A stretch of DNA of 64,000 bases from an uncultured Opitutia bacterium (GTDB lineage: Bacteria; Verrucomicrobiota; Verrucomicrobiia; Opitutales; Coraliomargaritaceae). This document shows, piece by piece, positions 24,662 through 56,850 of this stretch. The DNA lies in NCBI GenBank assembly GCA_937136395.1, contig CAKZOI010000073.1, forward strand, positions 62,001 through 126,000, written 5' to 3'. Position 1 is the stretch's first letter; each line of letters starts with the position of its first letter. The notes under the pieces were generated by a model. The model was given only the letters and a program-made list of their open reading frames with translations, ran no database searches and was not told the origin of the DNA. The translations under genes were made by a program, and so were the position numbers.

Positions 24662-25891
24662 TCATTCGTGTCGCAGCGCTTCCATTGGTGAAAGGTTGGC
24701 AGCTTTCCAGGCAGGAAAAGAACCAAAAACGACACCCGTCAAAATGGACACAGTGAGCGACACCACCACTGAGAACAGGGTGACCGCAGTGGGCATACTG
24801 GCATATTGAGCCACAAAACCAGCGAGTAAAACTCCGAGCAAGGCCCCCAGTACACCTCCAATCGTGGTCAACACCACCGATTCGACCAAAAACTGTATGA
24901 GAATATCTTGGCGTGTGGCGCCCAGCGCACGACGTGTTCCAATTTCTTTCATACGCTCATAAATATTCGCCAACATAATATTCATAATACCAATGCCCCC
25001 TACCAACAGAGAGATCGAAGCAATGGAGGCCATGACGATGGTAAAGATACGTTGAGTCGCTTCCTGCTGACGCATCAACTCAAAGGGCAATATGATTTCA
25101 TAATCAGGCTCTCGATGCGTTGTCTGCAAATAGGCCTCTAAGCGGCGACTGGTGTTTTCAATCTGTTCGACATCATTCACGACCACATAAAGCAACTTAT
25201 AGGGCATCGCAATTCGACTGACCCGCGGTGCCGACCATTGGTTAAATCCTGTCGTGCTGGGTAAATAAAGCATCGAATTCACACTACCCATACCTTCAAG
25301 AGTGCGGTCACTCGTATTGTTCAAAACACCGACAATATTTAGATAAATGCCGTTCACCAACAGCCGCTCACCGACTGGATTTCTAAATTGAAACAATGAT
25401 TCTGCAAGACGACTGCCGATCACACAAACAGGTGCCCCTTCCTCGCGATCTTTTGCAGTTAAAAAACGACTTTTCGAGCCGACTAATTGACTGTTCGTGA
25501 TCTCTAGAAACTCGATCGGCACACCCAGAATATTAACATTCGGTAATTCGATCCAATGGCTGATCACCATACCACTCCAGCTAGTGATCGGCAGCACAGC
25601 ACTCACGTTGTCGAATTCACTACCGATGTGCGCGATATCCTTATCAGTAATACCAACAACACCACTCTGAGTATTTTCGCCATCGTCCGTCGTTAGCGAT
25701 CGGATGATAATTTTATCCACCCCCATCTCTTGAATCTGGCGAATCGACTCTAATCGGGCGCCCTCTCCAATCGCCAACATACCCACCACAGCGCCCACAC
25801 CAAAGACAACCCCCAAACCCGCAAGAAATGCACGGAATGGATGGTTGGTAAGGCTCGCCACCGAAAGTCGTAGTGTATTTGAAAAGCGCAT
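24662..25891 (-). CDS. MacB-type ABC transporter permease (FtsX family)
   Basis: A 409-residue inner-membrane protein. A membrane helix near residues 15-40 (FRAFLAGLGVVFGVGAVVGM) is followed by a periplasmic MacB-PCD domain of about 220 residues. A C-terminal FtsX domain has three helices and the EIGTRRALGATRQDILIQF coupling motif. It is the last gene of a four-gene unit: secretin, adaptor, ATPase, permease. MacB-type permeases are mechanotransmitters that drive substrates from the periplasm through the adaptor and an outer-membrane channel. The gap to the ATPase gene is 3 bp. Confidence 0.9.
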   Translation of the reverse strand: MRFSNTLRLSVASLTNHPFRAFLAGLGVVFGVGAVVGMLAIGEGARLESIRQIQEMGVDKIIIRSLTTDDGENTQSGVVGITDKDIAHIGSEFDNVSAVLPITSWSGMVISHWIELPNVNILGVPIEFLEITNSQLVGSKSRFLTAKDREEGAPVCVIGSRLAESLFQFRNPVGERLLVNGIYLNIVGVLNNTSDRTLEGMGSVNSMLYLPSTTGFNQWSAPRVSRIAMPYKLLYVVVNDVEQIENTSRRLEAYLQTTHREPDYEIILPFELMRQQEATQRIFTIVMASIASISLLVGGIGIMNIMLANIYERMKEIGTRRALGATRQDILIQFLVESVVLTTIGGVLGALLGVLLAGFVAQYASMPTAVTLFSVVVSLTVSILTGVVFGSFPAWKAANLSPMEALRHE

Positions 25892-25894
25892 ACC

Positions 25895-26584
25895 TTAAGA
25901 GCGTGTGATGTTGCCGTCATGAATCTCCACCACGCGATCCACTTCTTCTTCATAATCTGGATTATGTGTCACCATAATTACAGAGCGCCCCTCAGAGCGG
26001 AGCTCCCGAAAGATATCCATCACTTCTTCACCAGTAGATTCATCGAGATTCCCGGTCGGCTCATCCGCCAAAAGAACGGGTGGATCATTTGCCAATGCAC
26101 GCGCAATCGCGACACGTTGGCGCTGCCCACCCGATAGCTCCGTTGGCTTATGATCCGTGCGGTCTTTTAGCCCAAGGCGCGTCAATACTTCGAGCGCCCG
26201 CTCCTTCATATATTCCTTGGGCTGTTCCGCATAGTGCATCGGCACACAGACATTTTCCATGACAGACATGGTCGGAAATAGATTAAATGATTGAAAAATA
26301 AACCCAATCTTACGGCAACGAATCTGTGATATATCAAAATCTGGAAGATCCGCCACATTTTGGCCGTCCAACCAATATTCACCAGAGCTAGGCTGATCTA
26401 AAAGCCCTAACAAATTCAACAAGGTGGATTTACCCGAGCCTGACGGACCCACGATCGCCACAAACTGACCTGAAAAAAACTGCAGCTTCAGCGGGTGTAA
26501 GGCATGCACAACATGCGCACCCATTTGATAGCGCTTCGCAATCGCTTTCAAATCAATCATCGGTGGGGTCGAGACGGTTTCCAT
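25895..26584 (-). CDS. ABC transporter ATP-binding protein (MacB/LolD type)
   Basis: A 229-residue ATPase with Walker [10 protein letters not shown] (about residue 45), Q-loop [18 protein letters not shown], signature [15 protein letters not shown], Walker [14 protein letters not shown] and the H-loop MVTHNPDYE. It matches the LolD/MacB subgroup that pairs with FtsX-type permeases. It sits between the adaptor gene (20-bp gap) and the permease gene (3-bp gap), so it powers the same exporter. All catalytic motifs are intact. Confidence 0.94.
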
Positions 26585-26604
26585 AGATTACACGCCCGAG
26601 CCGA

Positions 26605-28317
26605 TTAATTTCCTAAGGAACCGCTTTGAGAAAACAGTAACACAGTGTCACCCTCTTCCAAACCTGATAGGATTTCAACATGACTGTTGGACGCACGCCC
26701 CGTCTGAACTAAGCGTTCTTCAACAGCGAAGCCACTCTTCACCCGACAATACGATTCACCCTCATTATCATAGACTGCTTCGATCGGGACATAGAGCACA
26801 TCCTCCACACTATCGACCAAAATTTCTACTTCGACCGTCATCCCAGGCACGAGTCTAGGGTCTGAACTATCCGTGCTGATACTCGTGACATACACTCGTG
26901 GGCTTCGTGCATCCCAAGAAATCAAACGCTGAGACATTGTAGCAATACTCTGCACCTTCCCCTTCATCTCCAAATTGGGCAATGCGGCATTCTTCAGCAG
27001 AGCTGTCTGATTCGCACTGACTCGCGAGCGATAGATCTCAGGAATATCACAACGCACAAGAAACTGCGAAAGGTCCGGGATACGTGCAACGACTTCCTTT
27101 GGCTTCACATCCACACCGATCGCTAAGAGCTTCGGCTCACGACCTCTGCGAGGCTTCGCACCTAAGGTGACAATGCCACTAATAGGTGCCCTGAGAACCA
27201 ATCCTTCTAAATCTTCTTTAACTTCCGCTAAACGTTCATCTAGTCGCTCCATTTTCGTCGCATACTCTTCTTTAATACGTTCAAGGTCTTCGACGTATTT
27301 CTCCTTATGCTCTACAATGTTCTGTTGTGTATTACTCTTGTCTCGGAGTAATTTGCGGTAGCGACGTTCTGCCTGCACATGGTCACTCTCTGCTTTGAGT
27401 AAGTAGCGCTTTAAATTGAGCTCTGACATTTCCAAAGCGATCGTCAAGCGCCGCAAGGTTTGAGGATGATCATAGCGGCGAAACTGACGATCTGCCTTGC
27501 GAGCGGTCTCCCACGCGCCAAATGAATTATTCACCTTCTTCTGCGCGAGAGTCACTGCCCGCTCAGCTTTTTCGCGCGTCGAATCATCCTTCAACCGAGC
27601 CTCCGATAGCTCCTGCGTTGCTTTATCCAAATCGTCAACGGCATCATAATACTCCTGTTCTTTATCATCAATCTGAGTCTGCATTTGCTTACTTTTAGTT
27701 CGATACTCTAGATTCTGATATTTATTCAATGCCTCTTTTGCCGTTTCAAAAGAATTACTCGCCTGAGCAATTGTGCTCATCGATTTATCACGGTCCACCG
27801 ACTGGGTGCCGAGAAATAGAGAGATATTCAACTCCCGGTCGTCTAATGCCTCTTCCAAGTCACGCATCTTATTCTCAAAAACATCTTGGGTAAAAATCAA
27901 GTTCTCCTCGTGATCTGTCTGCGTGTCATAGATCTCTTCCTCTAGTCTAGTAATCTCTTCTAAGTAGGCTTCTTTCGCAAATGATACCACAGGATCCCCC
28001 GCCTCAACATGCGACTTGTCTTCGACAATTTGCTCAATTCGCAGCCCTTTTCTTGCAGCGCCCTCGAAGCTTAATTCATAATTTTCGATCGCATCCAATT
28101 CACCACGAGCGAGCACAGTGATATTAAAATCCCCGCGCTCGACCTTATGGTAGCGGTCCAACTCTGCAGACTCTTCGCCGCCTGTTCCGTTTGAACACTG
28201 AGACAGACCCAACACGAACAAGATGCCAAGCACTGCGCCTCCTAAAAACAGTATACGCTGCCTCGAAGATAAACCACTAAACCATGTTGCTAGGCGCTTA
28301 ATCATCGCTCGCATCAA
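26605..28317 (-). CDS. HlyD/MacA-like periplasmic adaptor with long coiled coil
   Basis: About 570 residues, starting at 28317 or at the in-frame ATG at 28305. One membrane span lies near the N-terminus ([20 protein letters not shown]). A split lipoyl/barrel-sandwich domain is interrupted by a very long, charged helical segment (residues about 110-370, many Glu, Lys and Arg heptads) predicted to form a coiled coil. A beta-barrel and membrane-proximal domain follow ([23 protein letters not shown]). The hairpin is much longer than in MacA. It overlaps the end of the secretin gene by about 8-20 bp, implying translational coupling. Confidence 0.88.
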
Positions 28318-29611
28318 AGAAGATCTTCACATCCTCAACCAAGGTTGACTCTTCGGCCGCTGCAGAATGCTGCGCTTCAATATCTTCAATAACAGCATCG
28401 ATCTTCGGATCGATTTGATCGGGTTGTATGATCGTTTCGTCTCCAAATTTAAGAATTTTGATATTCAGGAATATGATTAACTGCGTCTGCTCACTTTGTC
28501 GACGATCGGATTTAAAGAGCGTGCCCAACAACGGCACTTTCGAGAAAACTGGCGTGCGGCGCTTAGTATCACGATCGGTGCTTTGCAAGAGTCCAGCCAT
28601 AGAGATTAACTGGCCATCACGCACTTCCAATTCAGTGCGTGCCTGACGCACCGCAATAATAGGATTACTGACCTCACCTGCGACACTGAAGCCAATAACT
28701 GTCGACACTTCGGGGTTCACCTCGAGACGTATCCGATCACCAGCAATCATCGTCGGCTTCACATTGAGCTTAATACCCACACTCTTAAATTCTGTCGATG
28801 TCGTCACACCCCCACTTGAAGTCGTTTGCGAGAGAATCGGCACTTCACGACCAGTGACAATGCTTCCTTCTTTACCGCGCTGGATGATTAAATTCGGCGC
28901 GGAGAGAATCTTAGCCTTACCATTGGTTTCCAAATAGCGGATAAATAAATTTAACGACTCGGAACCCTGATCCCAAATCTGCGAATTCACGATACCACCT
29001 TGTCCAGTATTGGGTGCGGCACCTGCCACCCCAAGTTTAGTGCCCACTTCATCCACTAGAGCGAGCTCTCCAGTTAATAAATCCGTACCGATATTCTCAT
29101 AAAACAAGTCGACCTCTTTCTCTAAATCAGAATCAACATTGAGCTCTACGATACGAGCTTCGACCAATATCTGCGGCACTGGTTTGTCTAAGCGCGTGAT
29201 AATGCCTTTCAATGCTGCAAGGTTTTCAGGCGTATCGGACATCACTAATTGATCGGATTCGGCACTTTCAGCAACCATACCGTCCGAACTGATAAATTCT
29301 TCGAGAACACGGCGTAAGTTTGACGCCTGTATATATTGGCAGTCGTAGATATATACTTCCTTCACGTCGGCCTCACCGGTTCCAGCAACGTGCTCTTTAA
29401 ATCGGTCTAAGCGCTGACCATGATCATCCTGTAGCGCCTCGTCTAAAGATCCGAGTATCAACTCTTCGTTATCTTCAACGGAAACCACCTCCTGCGCGTC
29501 GACTGTAACAGCTAACGATAGCCCAGCGAACACGCTCAACAAGACGAGGAGACGCCTGAATAGTGACCTTAAATATTTGCAAAATCGTAGAAATGAAAAG
29601 GTATACAACAT
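28298..29611 (-). CDS. Secretin (GspD/PilQ-like outer-membrane channel)
   Basis: A 437-residue protein with a signal peptide ([20 protein letters not shown], cleaved near residue 39). One N1-type ring domain follows ([20 protein letters not shown] ... VLVEARI-like [12 protein letters not shown]), then a C-terminal secretin domain ending in the family signature [20 protein letters not shown]. After this there is only an acidic tail and no obvious pilotin-binding domain. There are no type II or IV pilus genes nearby. It is the first gene of an operon with an adaptor and a MacB-like ABC pump, where TolC would be expected. Function as the pump's outer-membrane exit is inferred. Confidence 0.9.
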
Positions 29612-50630: not shown

Positions 50631-51182
50631 ATGCTTCTTGCCCAAACGCCAACACCACAAATGCCACCGCTCCCCGAAGGGCCGTCGCTAGATCGTGTCC
50701 GTGGACCGGTAGAGATTCCTCTGCTGGAAACTTGGCAAGTCCTCACGGCTGGGACAATCGTGCTCGTTGTCAGCATTTTGTTACTCTGGCTTTGCATTCG
50801 ATATCTGCGCAAAGAAAGCAGCCAAAAGCCACAAATCTCCCCATCAAAAGTCGCCATTGATGAGCTCAATGCCGCCGCAAAATTAGCCAACGATGACGAT
50901 CGTTTCGCAGTGCAAGCATCTGCTGCACTGCGCCGTTATTTTGAAGACGGGCTACACATTCCAAGCTATGGCCGCACGAGTGAAGAGTTCCTACGTAGTT
51001 TAAAAGGCAATACACTACTCAACGCTTCATTCAACGAATCACTCGAACGCTTTTTTGCACAATGCGACGCTATGAAATTTGCACGCAAATCAAGCAGCAC
51101 TGAAGAACGGTCCGCACTCATTTCGGCCGCCAAACAACTCATTGATATCGCTGACAAAACAAAGGAGAACGCCCCGAAGTGA
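50631..51182 (+). CDS. DUF4381-type membrane protein
   Basis: 183 residues. An N-terminal Pro-rich segment ([17 protein letters not shown]) is followed by a membrane span near residues 35-60 ([20 protein letters not shown]). A cytoplasmic helical domain ends the protein ([40 protein letters not shown]). It matches DUF4381-like proteins found between DUF58 and BatA in such operons. It has no known catalytic site. Its stop overlaps the next start (GTGA), implying translational coupling. Confidence 0.8.
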
Positions 51183-52219
51183 ACTTCTTTCAATTTCAAG
51201 ATCCACTCTTTTTTTTACTCCTACTATTGCTCCCAGTGCTGGCATGGTGGGCGGGTCGCATGGGACCAGAAGCAGCTGTTCGCTTCTCAAGCACTGCGCT
51301 CGTTAAAGCGGTTAGCCACAATCGGCGCAGTCGTCCAGGCCGTATGCTTTTCGGATTACGCTTGTTAGCGCTTGTGGCACTCATCACAGCCCTCGCTCGC
51401 CCACAGCTTGGTAAAATGAACGACACCACCGACGCCGAAGGAATCGACATCGTCGTCACACTCGACTTATCCCTATCGATGCGCGCATTAGACCTCTCAA
51501 CACGCGAGGATGTGGTCACTCGACTCGACGCCGCCAAGCGAGTTGTTCATGAATTTATCGGCAAGCGCCCTTACGATCGTATCGGGATTGTCGCCTTCGC
51601 TTCTGAAGCTTATGTCGTCAGTCCGCTCACGCTCAATCACGATTGGTTGAAAAAAAACCTCGACCGTCTTGAGCTAGGAGAAATCGACGGTGGTGGCACG
51701 GCGATCGGCACCGCTCTAGGCGCCAGTGTGAATCGTTTACGCGATCATGAATCACGCAGTCGTATCGTCATCCTGCTCACAGACGGCGAAAACAACTCTG
51801 GGGTCATTTCACCCATTGGTGCCGCGGAAGCCGCTAAAACTTACGGCGTTAAAGTCTACACCATCGCAACAGGAAAAAAAGGCCGCGTTGCCGCACCAGA
51901 GACAGACCAGCGCACTGGCCAAGTTCTACGTGATCGAGACGGCAGACCGGTCTATCGCGGACGTTCAATGCCATCCGACTATGACGAGGTTGAACTCACC
52001 GAAATTGCAAGCATGACGGGTGGTCAGTTTTTCCGGGCAACCGAAAGTGGCGACCTCGAACGTATATACGACGAAATCGATGAGCTAGAAAAGACCACTA
52101 TTGAGCTTCGCTCCTACGCCACTTTTACAGAGCTCTTCATCTGGCCCGCGCTCACTGGACTAGCTTTACTCCTAATCGAACAACTACTTCGCAACACACG
52201 CTACCGTAGACTGCCATGA
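51179..52219 (+). CDS. batA: BatA-like VWA membrane protein
   Basis: A 346-residue protein starting with GTG at 51179, overlapping the previous stop by 4 bp. N-terminal membrane spans ([18 protein letters not shown] and [12 protein letters not shown]) precede a VWA domain with the MIDAS motif [15 protein letters not shown] (about residues 90-104) and [14 protein letters not shown]-terminal span ([20 protein letters not shown]) ends it. This is the BatA layout known from Bacteroidetes and related groups. Its stop overlaps the batB start (ATGA). Its role in envelope stress tolerance is inferred. Confidence 0.9.
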
Positions 52220-54282
52220 ACTTCGAACACACAGTCTGGCTCTATATCACTGCTGCAATCGTCTGTATTGCCGCAACGATGATCGCCTTCGGACTCCAAC
52301 GCCGTGAAACCTTACTCAGTAAGTTCGCTGCGAATCGCTTGCTGGATCAACTCACCGAAAAAGCCAGTCAGACGCGCACACTCATTAAAGCAGTCTGTAT
52401 ACTCATCGGCCTGGCTGCGATCGGAGTCGCACTCGCGCGCCCACAATACGGAGTCGAATGGTCCGAGCGTAAAGCACGTGGCCTCGACATCGTATTCGTG
52501 CTCGACAGCTCTAAGAGTATGCTTGCCACTGACATGCGCCCAACTCGGCTCGATCGCGCAAAACTCGCAGTCATCGACTTAACCGAACGCTTAGAGAGTG
52601 ACCGAATTGGACTCGTCGCCTTCGCTGGACGAGCGTTTCTACAAACGCCCCCAACACTCGATTACTCTGCCTTTCGCGAAAGTCTAGATGCCATCAGTCC
52701 AGAGAGCATGACCAGTGGTGGCAGTGATCTCGGTAATGCCATCAAAGAAGCCGAGAAAGCCTTTCCACAAGACAACAACTTTAAAGTTATCATTCTGCTA
52801 ACTGATGGCGAAGACCTCGGAGGCAGCGCTATCGAAACCGCGAAGGCCGCTGCTAAAAACGGTATTAAAGTCTATGCAATCGGCATCGGCACCCCAGAAG
52901 GCGACTACCTTCGTATTCGCAACGAGCGAGGCGAAGAAAGCTTCATTCGCGATGATTCGGGTCAACCCGTGCGCAGCCAACTAGACGAATCGAATCTACA
53001 AGAAATTGCTCAACTCACTGGCGGATCGTATAGTCGGCTCAGCTCACAATCACTCGAAGCGCTCTACAATTCAGTGATCGCCACACTCCCCCGCGAGGAG
53101 CGCGAAGCCGAGATGCAAGAGCGCGCCATCGAGCGCTATCAATGGGCCATAGGTATTGCATTATTTTTTCTAGTATTGGAAATATTGATACGTCGTCGCA
53201 GCAATGCACGTATTCATGCAGCACTCTTCGCCATAGCACTGATTCCGGCACTACCACAAAGCTCCGAAGCACAAGAAAGCATCCCTCTTGACTCTGAAAC
53301 AGACAGCACAGAAGTCGAAACTGATCCATTAAGCATTCCAGAGGATGCACGCATTAGCTACAACCAAGCATTCGAGGCACTCACCAATGGCAATATAGAA
53401 GCCGCCAAAACGCTTTACCAAAGCAGCATCGCACAGACCGACGATTTGCAGCTACAACGCGACGCCTTATATAACCTAGCACATAGCACCTACCAGACTG
53501 GCCGACAAACCTACACAACTGGAGACCTTGAAGCGTCGATTGAGGAAATGAAAGCAGCCGAAGCGTTGTTCAATTCAGCTTTAGAAATCGATCCGAATGA
53601 CAGTGCAGCTGCCGAAGACTTAAAGAAAGTCACCGCCGTTCGCGAAGCGATCGAAAAGCTCAAACAGGAACAAGACGAACAAGAATCTGAAAACCAAGAT
53701 TCAGAGAATCAAGACCAACAAAACTCCGATCAAAATCAAAATTCGGACGATCAGTCACAAGAAGAGCAGGACTCGGACCAACAGGACCAACAGGACCAAC
53801 AGGAGTCGGATCAGCAAGAGTCGGATCAGCAAGACCAACAACAAGAGGGAGAAGACAGTCAACTATCCGAAAGCAACGAAGCCTCAGATCAGTCGCAAGA
53901 GAATCCATCAGAAGGCGATGAAGGTGAAGAAAATCAGGATGCATCTCAACAGTCCTCTCCTAGTGACGAGTCCTCGGAAGAACAAGAATCCACCCGTAAT
54001 CCAGCTGACGACATGGCTGAAGATGAACCAGCCGGTGAAGACGAGCAAAGTGCTGAAAGCGAAGAGACTAACGAGCCAGGCAGCACTCCCCAAGTCAATG
54101 AAAGCGAAGCCTCCGAAGAAGACTCTGAAGGCGCACAAGCCACTGGCTCTGCAATACAAGTCGAAGGCATGACTCAAGAAGATGCCGCCGCTCTTTTAGA
54201 AAGCCTACGCGATGACGAAAAACTCCTCCCTTTTGTCGAACAAGGCGCACCACGTAACCGCGGAAAAATCCGCGACTGGTAG
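52216..54282 (+). CDS. batB: BatB-BatC fusion: VWA domain, TPRs and long acidic tail
   Basis: A 688-residue protein. Residues 1-310 form a BatB-type VWA module: membrane helices at the N-terminus, MIDAS in [28 protein letters not shown], and a second membrane region ([19 protein letters not shown]). Then come TPR-like repeats resembling BatC (residues about 375-470, for example [20 protein letters not shown]). The last third is a low-complexity stretch of Gln, Asp, Glu and Ser. In other bacteria BatB and BatC are often separate genes. The 3' end is 13 bp from batD. Confidence 0.88.
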
Positions 54283-54295
54283 ATACCCATTTGTC

Positions 54296-56119
54296 ATGAA
54301 GTTCAAACAGTCAGCATACATCCTATTCTTACTCTTCGCCGGCTTAGTGGCGCATGCCGCTGTCACAGTGACGGCACAATTTCAACCAAAGGTCATACCC
54401 CTTGGCGACAAGGCACAGTATGTCGTTTCAATCAAAGAAACCAGCTCAAGTGGCAGACCAGAAACAGAGCGCATCACCTCATTGCCAATCCCTCAATCTG
54501 GCGGTCTCAGCTTGCGCAATGGCCGAGTCTCTAATAGCCAACAGTCCGCTTTCATAAACGGTAAAGCGGAGCATTCGATCACCCAAAATCTCATCATCGA
54601 GGCCAGCGCCCCACGCGTCGGTAATTTCACGATTCCTAGCTACACATTTTCCTACAAAGGCGAGACCTACACAGCACCTGCGGCGACCTTACAGGTCACC
54701 GAACGCCCTGCCGATGCACCGCCCCCCGTCAACGAGCTCATCTACCTGAAAGTCGAAGCCCCGAACGAACTCTACATCGGACAAACAGCGCGGATTGAGC
54801 TCAAACTCTACGTTCATGAACAAGCACGTTACCGAGGTTATGACGACTTCACTCGCAACGCCGACGGATTCACTATCAGCGATTTACCAGAAGGCACCGA
54901 TCAGCTTGAACGTATCGGCAATTATCGCTATCAAGTCATCACATGGCCACTAACGATCACACCGATCCAAAGCGGAGCTCAAAACCTAAATTTCGAGTTT
55001 TCCATCGTAGCCGACTTACCTAACCAAAGGAATCGTCGTTCCCCGTTTGGAGGCAACAGCCCCTTCGGTGGCAGCATCTTCAACGACTTCTTTTCTACAC
55101 GCTCGGAGCGATTCAACCTCTTCAACGAGCCTACACAGATCAATGTGCTCCCACTACCCCAAACTGGAAAACCAGAGAGCTTTAGCGGTGCAATTGGAGA
55201 TTTCAGCATACAAGTATCCACCGACGCAAACGACAGCCGCGTGGGTGAACCGATTATGCTCTCACTTAAAGTCAGCGGTAGCGGCAACTTCGACCGTATA
55301 AACGGACCGACCTTACCTGAAAGCGCGACATGGCGCAACTACGAGCCAGAATCAACCATGGAAGCGTCACCGGCAAACCCACTCGCGGGTGTGAAGCGCT
55401 TCGATTATGTCTTCATCCCCCAACAAGCAGGTAAGCATTCCTTGCCAGAGGTGAAATTCAGCTTTTTTGATCCTGAAGAAAAAAAATACATCGAACTCAG
55501 CGCACCGCCCATTTCAGTCGAAGTAAAGCCCTCACTGCAAGCACGAGCACCTGTCTCAGCTACAACAGCCCCCAACCAGCCACAGACAAAAAATGAACCA
55601 GTGCCCAACAAAACACTGAGCCCTGAAGAAGTTTTGCTCACCCTTGACTATCGCCCACAAACAAGTGCGCCAACAGGCTTTGGCATACTCAAGCAACCAG
55701 TCTTCTACACCTTCAATGCAGTCACAGGGATCGCCCTTTTCGCTGCAGGTCTCCTACTCTACAAACGGAAGCGACTTGCAACGGATCTCGAATACGCCAA
55801 CCAGCATGCCGCACGTGCCGAACTAAAAACGTCCTTAGCGACAGCAAGGTCAACAGAAGATCCAGACGCCTTCTACCGCGCCGCACAAGTATCAGTGCGC
55901 CTTGCAGCGGGTTTACACTTCAAACAAAACCTACGCGCCGCAGAGTTCAGCCAGCTCGAAGCACTTTTCCGATCCAAGCCAATCGCTGATAGCGTCATTA
56001 CTGCAGCACAAAAGCTATTCAGTCAGGCCGACGCCGTTCGTTTCTCAGGTAGCAAAAGCGAAAGCAATGACCTTCGCACAGCTCGACAGCACTTAGACAC
56101 CATTTTGAAAGCACTATGA
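54296..56119 (+). CDS. batD: BatD-like protein
   Basis: Start at 54296 (MKFKQSAYILFLLFAGLVAH) gives 607 residues; the longer frame from 54212 lies inside the batB end and is unlikely. A signal peptide is followed by beta-rich domains with the BatD opening AAVTVTAQFQPKVIPLGDKA. A membrane span (FYTFNAVTGIALFAAGLLLY, about residues 475-495) and a cytoplasmic helical tail follow. BatD is thought to bind partners in the periplasm. Its stop overlaps batE's start (ATGA). Confidence 0.85.
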   Translation: MKFKQSAYILFLLFAGLVAHAAVTVTAQFQPKVIPLGDKAQYVVSIKETSSSGRPETERITSLPIPQSGGLSLRNGRVSNSQQSAFINGKAEHSITQNLIIEASAPRVGNFTIPSYTFSYKGETYTAPAATLQVTERPADAPPPVNELIYLKVEAPNELYIGQTARIELKLYVHEQARYRGYDDFTRNADGFTISDLPEGTDQLERIGNYRYQVITWPLTITPIQSGAQNLNFEFSIVADLPNQRNRRSPFGGNSPFGGSIFNDFFSTRSERFNLFNEPTQINVLPLPQTGKPESFSGAIGDFSIQVSTDANDSRVGEPIMLSLKVSGSGNFDRINGPTLPESATWRNYEPESTMEASPANPLAGVKRFDYVFIPQQAGKHSLPEVKFSFFDPEEKKYIELSAPPISVEVKPSLQARAPVSATTAPNQPQTKNEPVPNKTLSPEEVLLTLDYRPQTSAPTGFGILKQPVFYTFNAVTGIALFAAGLLLYKRKRLATDLEYANQHAARAELKTSLATARSTEDPDAFYRAAQVSVRLAAGLHFKQNLRAAEFSQLEALFRSKPIADSVITAAQKLFSQADAVRFSGSKSESNDLRTARQHLDTILKAL

Positions 56120-56850
56120 AACGCTTCCTTACACACGCCCTAGTCTCACTTATTCTACTCGCGCAAGCGCTGAAAGCCGACAGCTTCAACGATGGTATCA
56201 CAGCGTATGAGAATGCCGAATACGAACAAGCGATAGACTATTTTGACGCTGCAATCGCTGAAAATGAAACGGCAGCAGCACGCCACAATATGGCCTTAAG
56301 TTATTTCCAATTAGGGAAACCCGCCGAAGCCGCATGGCAAATCGAGCGCGCTCTGCGCCTCGACCCACTCAAAGAAGAATACCACTACAAGCTTGGCGCG
56401 CTACGACAGCAAATCGGCCTCATCGAAGATCAGCCAGGATGGTTCACCATCGGCGCTCAATTCTTACCGACGAACACATGGATCTTCATTGCTTGTATTA
56501 GCTTCTGGCTACTCATCGCAGCATGTGTGCTACCAAGTATCGGCGGCCTCCCCGTCAACCTTGGCATAAAGGCGACTCGCGCGATCTCGATACTGTCACT
56601 ATTGCTCGCACTTCCCGCCTTATGGATACACCAGGGCTTAAACCAAAATGGTATCATCGTGAGTGATGCAGTTGCAGACCTCCACGCCGCGCCTGCAAGT
56701 GCCGCACCCGCAAGCGGCGTCGCACGCCCAGGTGAGCGAGCTCGCATTCTTGATCAATACAACGATTTCTACAAGGTCGAAACCGAAGCACACATTTCAG
56801 GCTGGATTAAAAAAGACTCCTTTCGTCCACTACGTTTGGAGAAAAATTAG
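56116..56850 (+). CDS. batE: BatE-like TPR/SH3 protein
   Basis: A 244-residue protein: a signal-like N-terminal segment (FLTHALVSLILLAQALKADS), two TPRs (about residues 22-90, YENAEYEQAIDYFDAAIAEN) and two membrane helices in the middle (WIFIACISFWLLIAACVLPS). The C-terminal half is an SH3-like domain (VARPGERARILDQYNDFYKV). This composition (TPR plus SH3 at the end of the operon) fits BatE. It starts 4 bp inside batD and is followed by an intrinsic terminator, so it is the last gene. Confidence 0.82.
   Translation: MKRFLTHALVSLILLAQALKADSFNDGITAYENAEYEQAIDYFDAAIAENETAAARHNMALSYFQLGKPAEAAWQIERALRLDPLKEEYHYKLGALRQQIGLIEDQPGWFTIGAQFLPTNTWIFIACISFWLLIAACVLPSIGGLPVNLGIKATRAISILSLLLALPALWIHQGLNQNGIIVSDAVADLHAAPASAAPASGVARPGERARILDQYNDFYKVETEAHISGWIKKDSFRPLRLEKN

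Follow-up and report, generated by a model that had tools for sequence, protein, structure and literature searches.

A putative tripartite ABC exporter with a secretin in the slot of TolC in Verrucomicrobiota

Relation to described exporters

Textbooks describe tripartite pumps with a TolC-family protein as the exit. In a stretch of 64,000 nucleotides from an uncultured Opitutia bacterium (Verrucomicrobiota; contig CAKZOI010000073.1, positions 62,001 to 126,000), hereafter the window, we analysed a four-gene operon that shares with MacAB-TolC a MacB-type permease with a periplasmic core, a MacB-class ATP-binding cassette (ABC) ATPase and a membrane-anchored MacA-like adaptor with an alpha-hairpin. 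Contrary to MacAB-TolC, its putative exit is a secretin, the ATPase and the permease are separate proteins, the adaptor has about 200 extra residues and there is no TolC-type motif at the hairpin tip. Very probably, the products of the four genes assemble into a single MacAB-like tripartite exporter that spans the envelope, where a secretin with a single N-domain, and not TolC, would form the exit.

The operon occupies positions 24662-29611 of the window and is transcribed from the minus strand, in the following order:

28298-29611, minus strand: secretin, 437 amino acids (aa), Pfam PF00263 and PF03958; proposed outer-membrane exit
26605-28317, minus strand: MacA-like periplasmic adaptor, 570 aa, NCBIfam RND_mfp; MacA is the best solved-structure match
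25895-26584, minus strand: ABC ATPase of the MacB/LolD class, 229 aa, PF00005; best models MacB, LolD, DarD and FtsE
24662-25891, minus strand: FtsX-type permease with a MacB periplasmic core domain, 409 aa, PF12704 and PF02687

The secretin and adaptor genes overlap by 20 bp if the adaptor starts at TTG, and by less if one of the in-frame ATGs just downstream is used; the next two gaps measure 20 bp (adaptor to ATPase) and 3 bp (ATPase to permease). A first-pass annotation, made from the sequence alone, had described four same-strand genes with gaps or overlaps of at most 20 bp, and had assigned them to the secretin, HlyD/MacA-like adaptor, ATPase and FtsX-type permease families; the layout is confirmed, as are the assignments, by Pfam and NCBIfam.

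The same module and gene order recur in TolC-type homologues within the phylum. Among other described systems, the secretins of the type II secretion system (T2SS) and of the type IV pilus, GspD and PilQ, have the secretin pore domain in common with the window protein, which differs in having one N-domain and no pilin, pseudopilin, GspE or GspF partner among the neighbouring genes; in the secretin tree, those of the pumps group together, separately from all others (support 98). The DevBCA-TolC and darobactin-type (Dar) exporters likewise have an adaptor and keep ATPase and FtsX permease as distinct proteins, but the window ATPase stays under their family cut-offs (DevA, 190 of 296 bits; DarD, 216 of 375). 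Both exporters are understood to use TolC-family exits. LolCDE shares a LolD-like ATPase and differs in that the window permease is poor in LolC/E character and is accompanied by an adaptor and an outer-membrane channel.

With its pore domain and N1-type domain, the window secretin belongs to the secretin superfamily. We place the whole among the tripartite type VII ABC exporters, as a variant whose outer-membrane part is of a new kind, and not as a member of MacAB-TolC, because both a TolC channel and the TolC-type tip motif are missing. A search of open-access journal papers returned no description of a secretin-MacAB system, and the system, present in 74 of the 388 genomes sampled from the phylum, seems undescribed in that literature. 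A T2SS-like cluster with ABC genes in Geobacter is a possible precedent; a literature search for OxpG gave nothing useful.

Secretin and TolC at homologous loci

By profile, a TolC-family gene occupies the first position, that of the secretin, in 32 homologous adaptor-ATPase-permease loci; Pfam was applied to nine such loci and gave the same family. Such TolC-type loci are found in the window's order and elsewhere. The outer-membrane gene was read at 26 secretin-type loci, and a secretin fills the slot in every one; among the loci compared none holds both a secretin and a TolC-family gene. Both pump types coexist in two genomes (G178 and G276).

The secretin-type permeases form one clade, with bootstrap and Shimodaira-Hasegawa-like approximate likelihood ratio supports of 100/99, recovered in 100% of the bootstrap trees. 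This clade is nested among TolC-type pumps, the TolC-type locus L137 being its sister (100/98), and the adaptor tree splits likewise into secretin-type and TolC-type branches (97). The simplest reading is therefore that TolC was replaced by a secretin a single time and that the secretin was then kept, the direction of this putative replacement resting on rooting with a distant TolC-type pump.

The tips of the adaptor hairpins differ in the same sense. According to reviews, adaptors dock to the outer-membrane factor by means of an RLS motif at this tip, which is required, apart from some exceptions (PMC4446572). A clear motif, for example LHRRGFITPLEMERDRL, is common to the tips of the TolC-type adaptors. 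Since the strict pattern RxxxLxxxxxxS failed to separate the two adaptor groups, we used a tip profile, built on TolC-type segments picked by eye and scored with the clade in question left out. TolC-type adaptors reach a median of 41 bits, and 29 of the 32 have at least 29 bits; none of the 29 secretin-type adaptors exceeds 7.5 bits, and that of the window has -9.6. Loss of the tip motif is what a changed docking partner would predict.

An adaptor profile and a pump-secretin profile were run on the 388 genomes. The pump secretins are a discrete family: the 74 carriers score at least 385 bits, apart from one cut-off copy at 305, while the next match, set among pilus- or T2SS-like genes, has 200. 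All 74 possess a matching adaptor, which lies directly downstream on the same strand in 70 (including G000 and G002, with a slight overlap of the two genes); in three others (G488, G450 and G478) the secretin reaches the contig end. The secretin without its pump, named beforehand as an observation that would speak against a joint function, was thus not seen, and the operon, whose gene order the first-pass annotation had proposed to seek in related genomes, does recur. The evolutionary distances of secretin, adaptor and permease correlate with r between 0.82 and 0.90, a value reached in none of 2000 permutations. No fifth gene recurs across families at the secretin-type loci; the four genes alone do.

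Two genomes, G322 and G226, keep the secretin with the adaptor and have the ATPase and permease at a different locus, a hint that secretin and adaptor are the most tightly linked part of the operon. The loci concerned are G322:C321 and G226:C52 (L110, L112), with L162 and L163.

Such an exporter had been called uncommon. This holds in the window's class, where the system occurs in three of 384 genomes, each belonging to the same family as the window (3 of 44); it does not hold for the rest of the phylum, as the remaining 71 carriers belong to other classes. The window trio sits inside a clade of these other-class carriers, so that the operon was likely gained laterally. When genome contigs were scanned, the window adaptor by itself brought up no relative, and the secretin alignment two loci, one of them from a metagenome-assembled genome of the same genus; no matching locus occurs in the viral contigs scanned.

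One side observation concerns the TolC-type loci L051-L053, L056-L058, L060 and L061, from the window's order. Their pumps have a MacB-like fused ATPase-permease, and their TolC-family proteins, of which the OEP model matches only a part, are very long (650-825 aa).

Features of the four proteins

The secretin matches Secretin (PF00263) with an E-value of 3.6e-41 and 141 bits and Secretin_N (PF03958) with 9.4e-8 and 32.6 bits, both above the cut-off. From its N-terminus, it has a signal peptide, a region of about 45 residues, the N1-type Secretin_N domain (89-147), the pore domain (227-387) and a C-terminal tail of about 50 residues. Its sole hydrophobic segment, 21-39, is signal-peptide-like. 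Pfam finds one Secretin_N domain, as noticed at first reading, and the periplasmic part is accordingly minimal. The orthologues in G002 and G010 are 64% identical to it. GspD is the best solved-structure match, yet the protein gains 187.5 of the 351 bits asked by the GspD model TIGR02517, and the pump secretin lies far under both the GspD and PilQ cut-offs of NCBIfam.

The ATPase (PF00005, ABC_tran, 2.2e-37) has its Walker A, LSGGQ, Walker B and H-loop motifs all intact. Besides the DevA and DarD scores given above, it obtains 253 of 966 bits with MacB and 226 of 308 with LolD, so it falls below every one of these NCBIfam cut-offs. The permease carries MacB_PCD (PF12704, 1.2e-28) and FtsX (PF02687, 2.2e-21), and its four hydrophobic segments (23-41, 282-300, 339-357 and 370-388) correspond to the type VII ABC topology. 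It scores 149 of 966 bits with MacB and 36 of 362 with LolC/E (TIGR02212). The adaptor has 40 of 342 bits with the curated MacA equivalog; neither the MacA nor the MacB cut-off is reached.

The adaptor is recognized by RND_mfp (4.7e-25) and weakly by the Pfam models HlyD_D23 and HlyD_3. It consists of an N-terminal membrane anchor (22-40), split lipoyl and beta domains and an alpha-hairpin. Residues 305-561 align with MacA 107-362, and what precedes this match exceeds its MacA counterpart by about 200 residues. In the structure model, reliable in the hairpin alone, the latter is unbroken, with helices 116-240 and 245-372 and a predicted local distance difference test score (pLDDT) mostly between 81 and 96. 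At 1.5 Å per residue, the predicted arm would be about 190 Å long.

The hairpin region counts 210-213 residues in most secretin-type adaptors, 269 in the window trio and 327 in L111, in steps of 58. The first step adds 29 residues to each arm, near the lipoyl domain (counted on alignment A5), and for this reason the arms stay matched. The lengths look as if the hairpin had grown in fixed symmetrical units of about 43 Å.

We considered the long coiled coil as an adaptation to the secretin and rejected this idea, as the hairpins of TolC-type relatives are of similar length and overlap the secretin-type range. The coiled coil, described earlier as unusually long, does exceed that of MacA without being special to secretin pumps. 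Judged from these comparisons, it is older than the presumed swap of TolC for a secretin.

Transport model and alternative readings

In the proposed exporter, the ATPase and the FtsX/MacB permease would make up an inner-membrane motor of the type VII ABC class, and the adaptor a periplasmic tube whose hairpin arms, of about 125 residues, would reach the secretin ring. The substrate, by homology to MacB, would enter from the periplasm or the inner membrane, and ATP-driven mechanotransmission would push it through the adaptor tube and out by the secretin. In MacB-type proteins, ATP hydrolysis drives periplasmic work and carries no substrate across the inner membrane (PMC5985334). For the window system, we infer the docking, stoichiometry, direction and substrate, along with the transport mechanism, which is taken from MacB. 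The tripartite exporter built on a secretin, as first suggested from the operon structure, is supported by the co-occurrence in 74 of 74 genomes, by TolC in the same slot of homologous loci and by the loss of the tip motif.

Several points weigh against it. The hairpin tip of secretin-type adaptors is poorly conserved. At mid-hairpin, these adaptors do conserve a pair of motifs, KY and RxFKRYxxP; taken with the poor tip, it follows that docking to the secretin may occur in a way other than tip-to-tip. A hexameric MacA-type ring facing a secretin of 12-15 subunits creates a symmetry mismatch that is avoided with TolC. The structure prediction of the secretin, from two sequences, reached a pLDDT of 34 and gave an unusable model. 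Correlated distances are expected for any jointly inherited genes. In one of the 74 genomes, G250, secretin and adaptor are at separate loci. Finally, the window's genome contains an orphan TolC-like gene (G000:C71:60165-61340, L069), adjoined by a Maf-like gene and no pump genes.

In G250, the pump secretin (L147, G250:C150:4476-6621) is followed by an M28 peptidase gene, with the adaptor elsewhere in the genome.

Secretin pores are wider than TolC, so larger cargo is possible, and the channel widths suggest that the cargo has changed. We put forward, tentatively and with some doubt, that the system is a separate class of double-membrane exporter that arose once, when TolC was replaced: a type VII ABC motor, docked by a long adaptor onto a wide secretin, would export from the periplasm folded proteins, polymers or other cargo that TolC is too narrow to pass. 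If TolC was cleanly exchanged for an outer-membrane ring unrelated to it, evolution would be able to rebuild the way in which adaptors dock. How an adaptor meets its outer-membrane partner has long been argued, and the pairs of TolC-type and secretin-type homologues, so sharply distinct at the tip of the hairpin, amount to a natural experiment on this question.

Alternatively, though this is unlikely, the complex could be a trafficking device, whose ABC part extracts a lipid, lipoprotein or precursor out of the inner membrane, as in LolCDE or YbbAP, for the secretin to place or release at the surface. By score, the ATPase is near both LolD and MacB, and type VII ABC proteins perform varied work in the envelope (PMC5985334, PMC12646458); against this, the permease is far closer to MacB than to LolC/E (149 versus 36 bits), an adaptor of the MacA type is present here and missing in Lol, and an exit channel occupies the first slot at all homologous loci.

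It is less probable still that the secretin, albeit co-transcribed, serves another machine (T2SS, type IV pilus or filament export) and that the pump uses a TolC encoded elsewhere. Secretins classically belong to T2SS, type IV pili and type III secretion systems, and the window's genome has both a separate T2SS gene set and the orphan, a conceivable exit for the pump. However, the T2SS set includes a secretin of its own, distinct from that of the pump (138 bits with the pump-secretin profile, versus 492 for the pump secretin), the pump-secretin family never occurs without the pump adaptor in the 388 genomes, its adaptors have no TolC-type tip motif, and no pilus or T2SS gene recurs across the secretin-type loci. 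The earlier statement that no TolC-like gene is present stands for the vicinity of the operon, which none adjoins, but not for the genome, which has seven. Six of these lie beside their own adaptor or pump genes, contig C70 holding a complete MacAB-like set with its TolC-like gene, and none is at a secretin-type locus; as the orphan remains, a TolC partner in the same species, which was to count against the exporter, can be called no more than unlikely.

That the four genes are functionally unlinked, lying together by chance or through faulty annotation, has a negligible probability: within the window's family the operon is patchily distributed (3 of 44 genomes), but the secretin-adaptor order kept in 70 genomes, with correlated divergence, refutes this.

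The window's genome encodes five secretins, and the four others score 94-155 bits with the pump-secretin profile. Two near-identical end portions of secretins lie at contig ends (G000:C36, L066; G000:C70, L067), and these secretins seem to be recent duplicates. Behind each comes a very large protein, of 1475 and 1587 aa respectively, that carries PPC, Big_7 or PD40 domains.

The flanks of the operon, with genes for glutaminyl-tRNA synthetase, galactokinase, a TetR regulator and a YHS-like protein, are unrelated to it, and its guanine-cytosine content is unremarkable. Further along the window, at 51179-56850, overlapping genes form an aerotolerance operon of the BatA/BatB/BatD/BatE kind.

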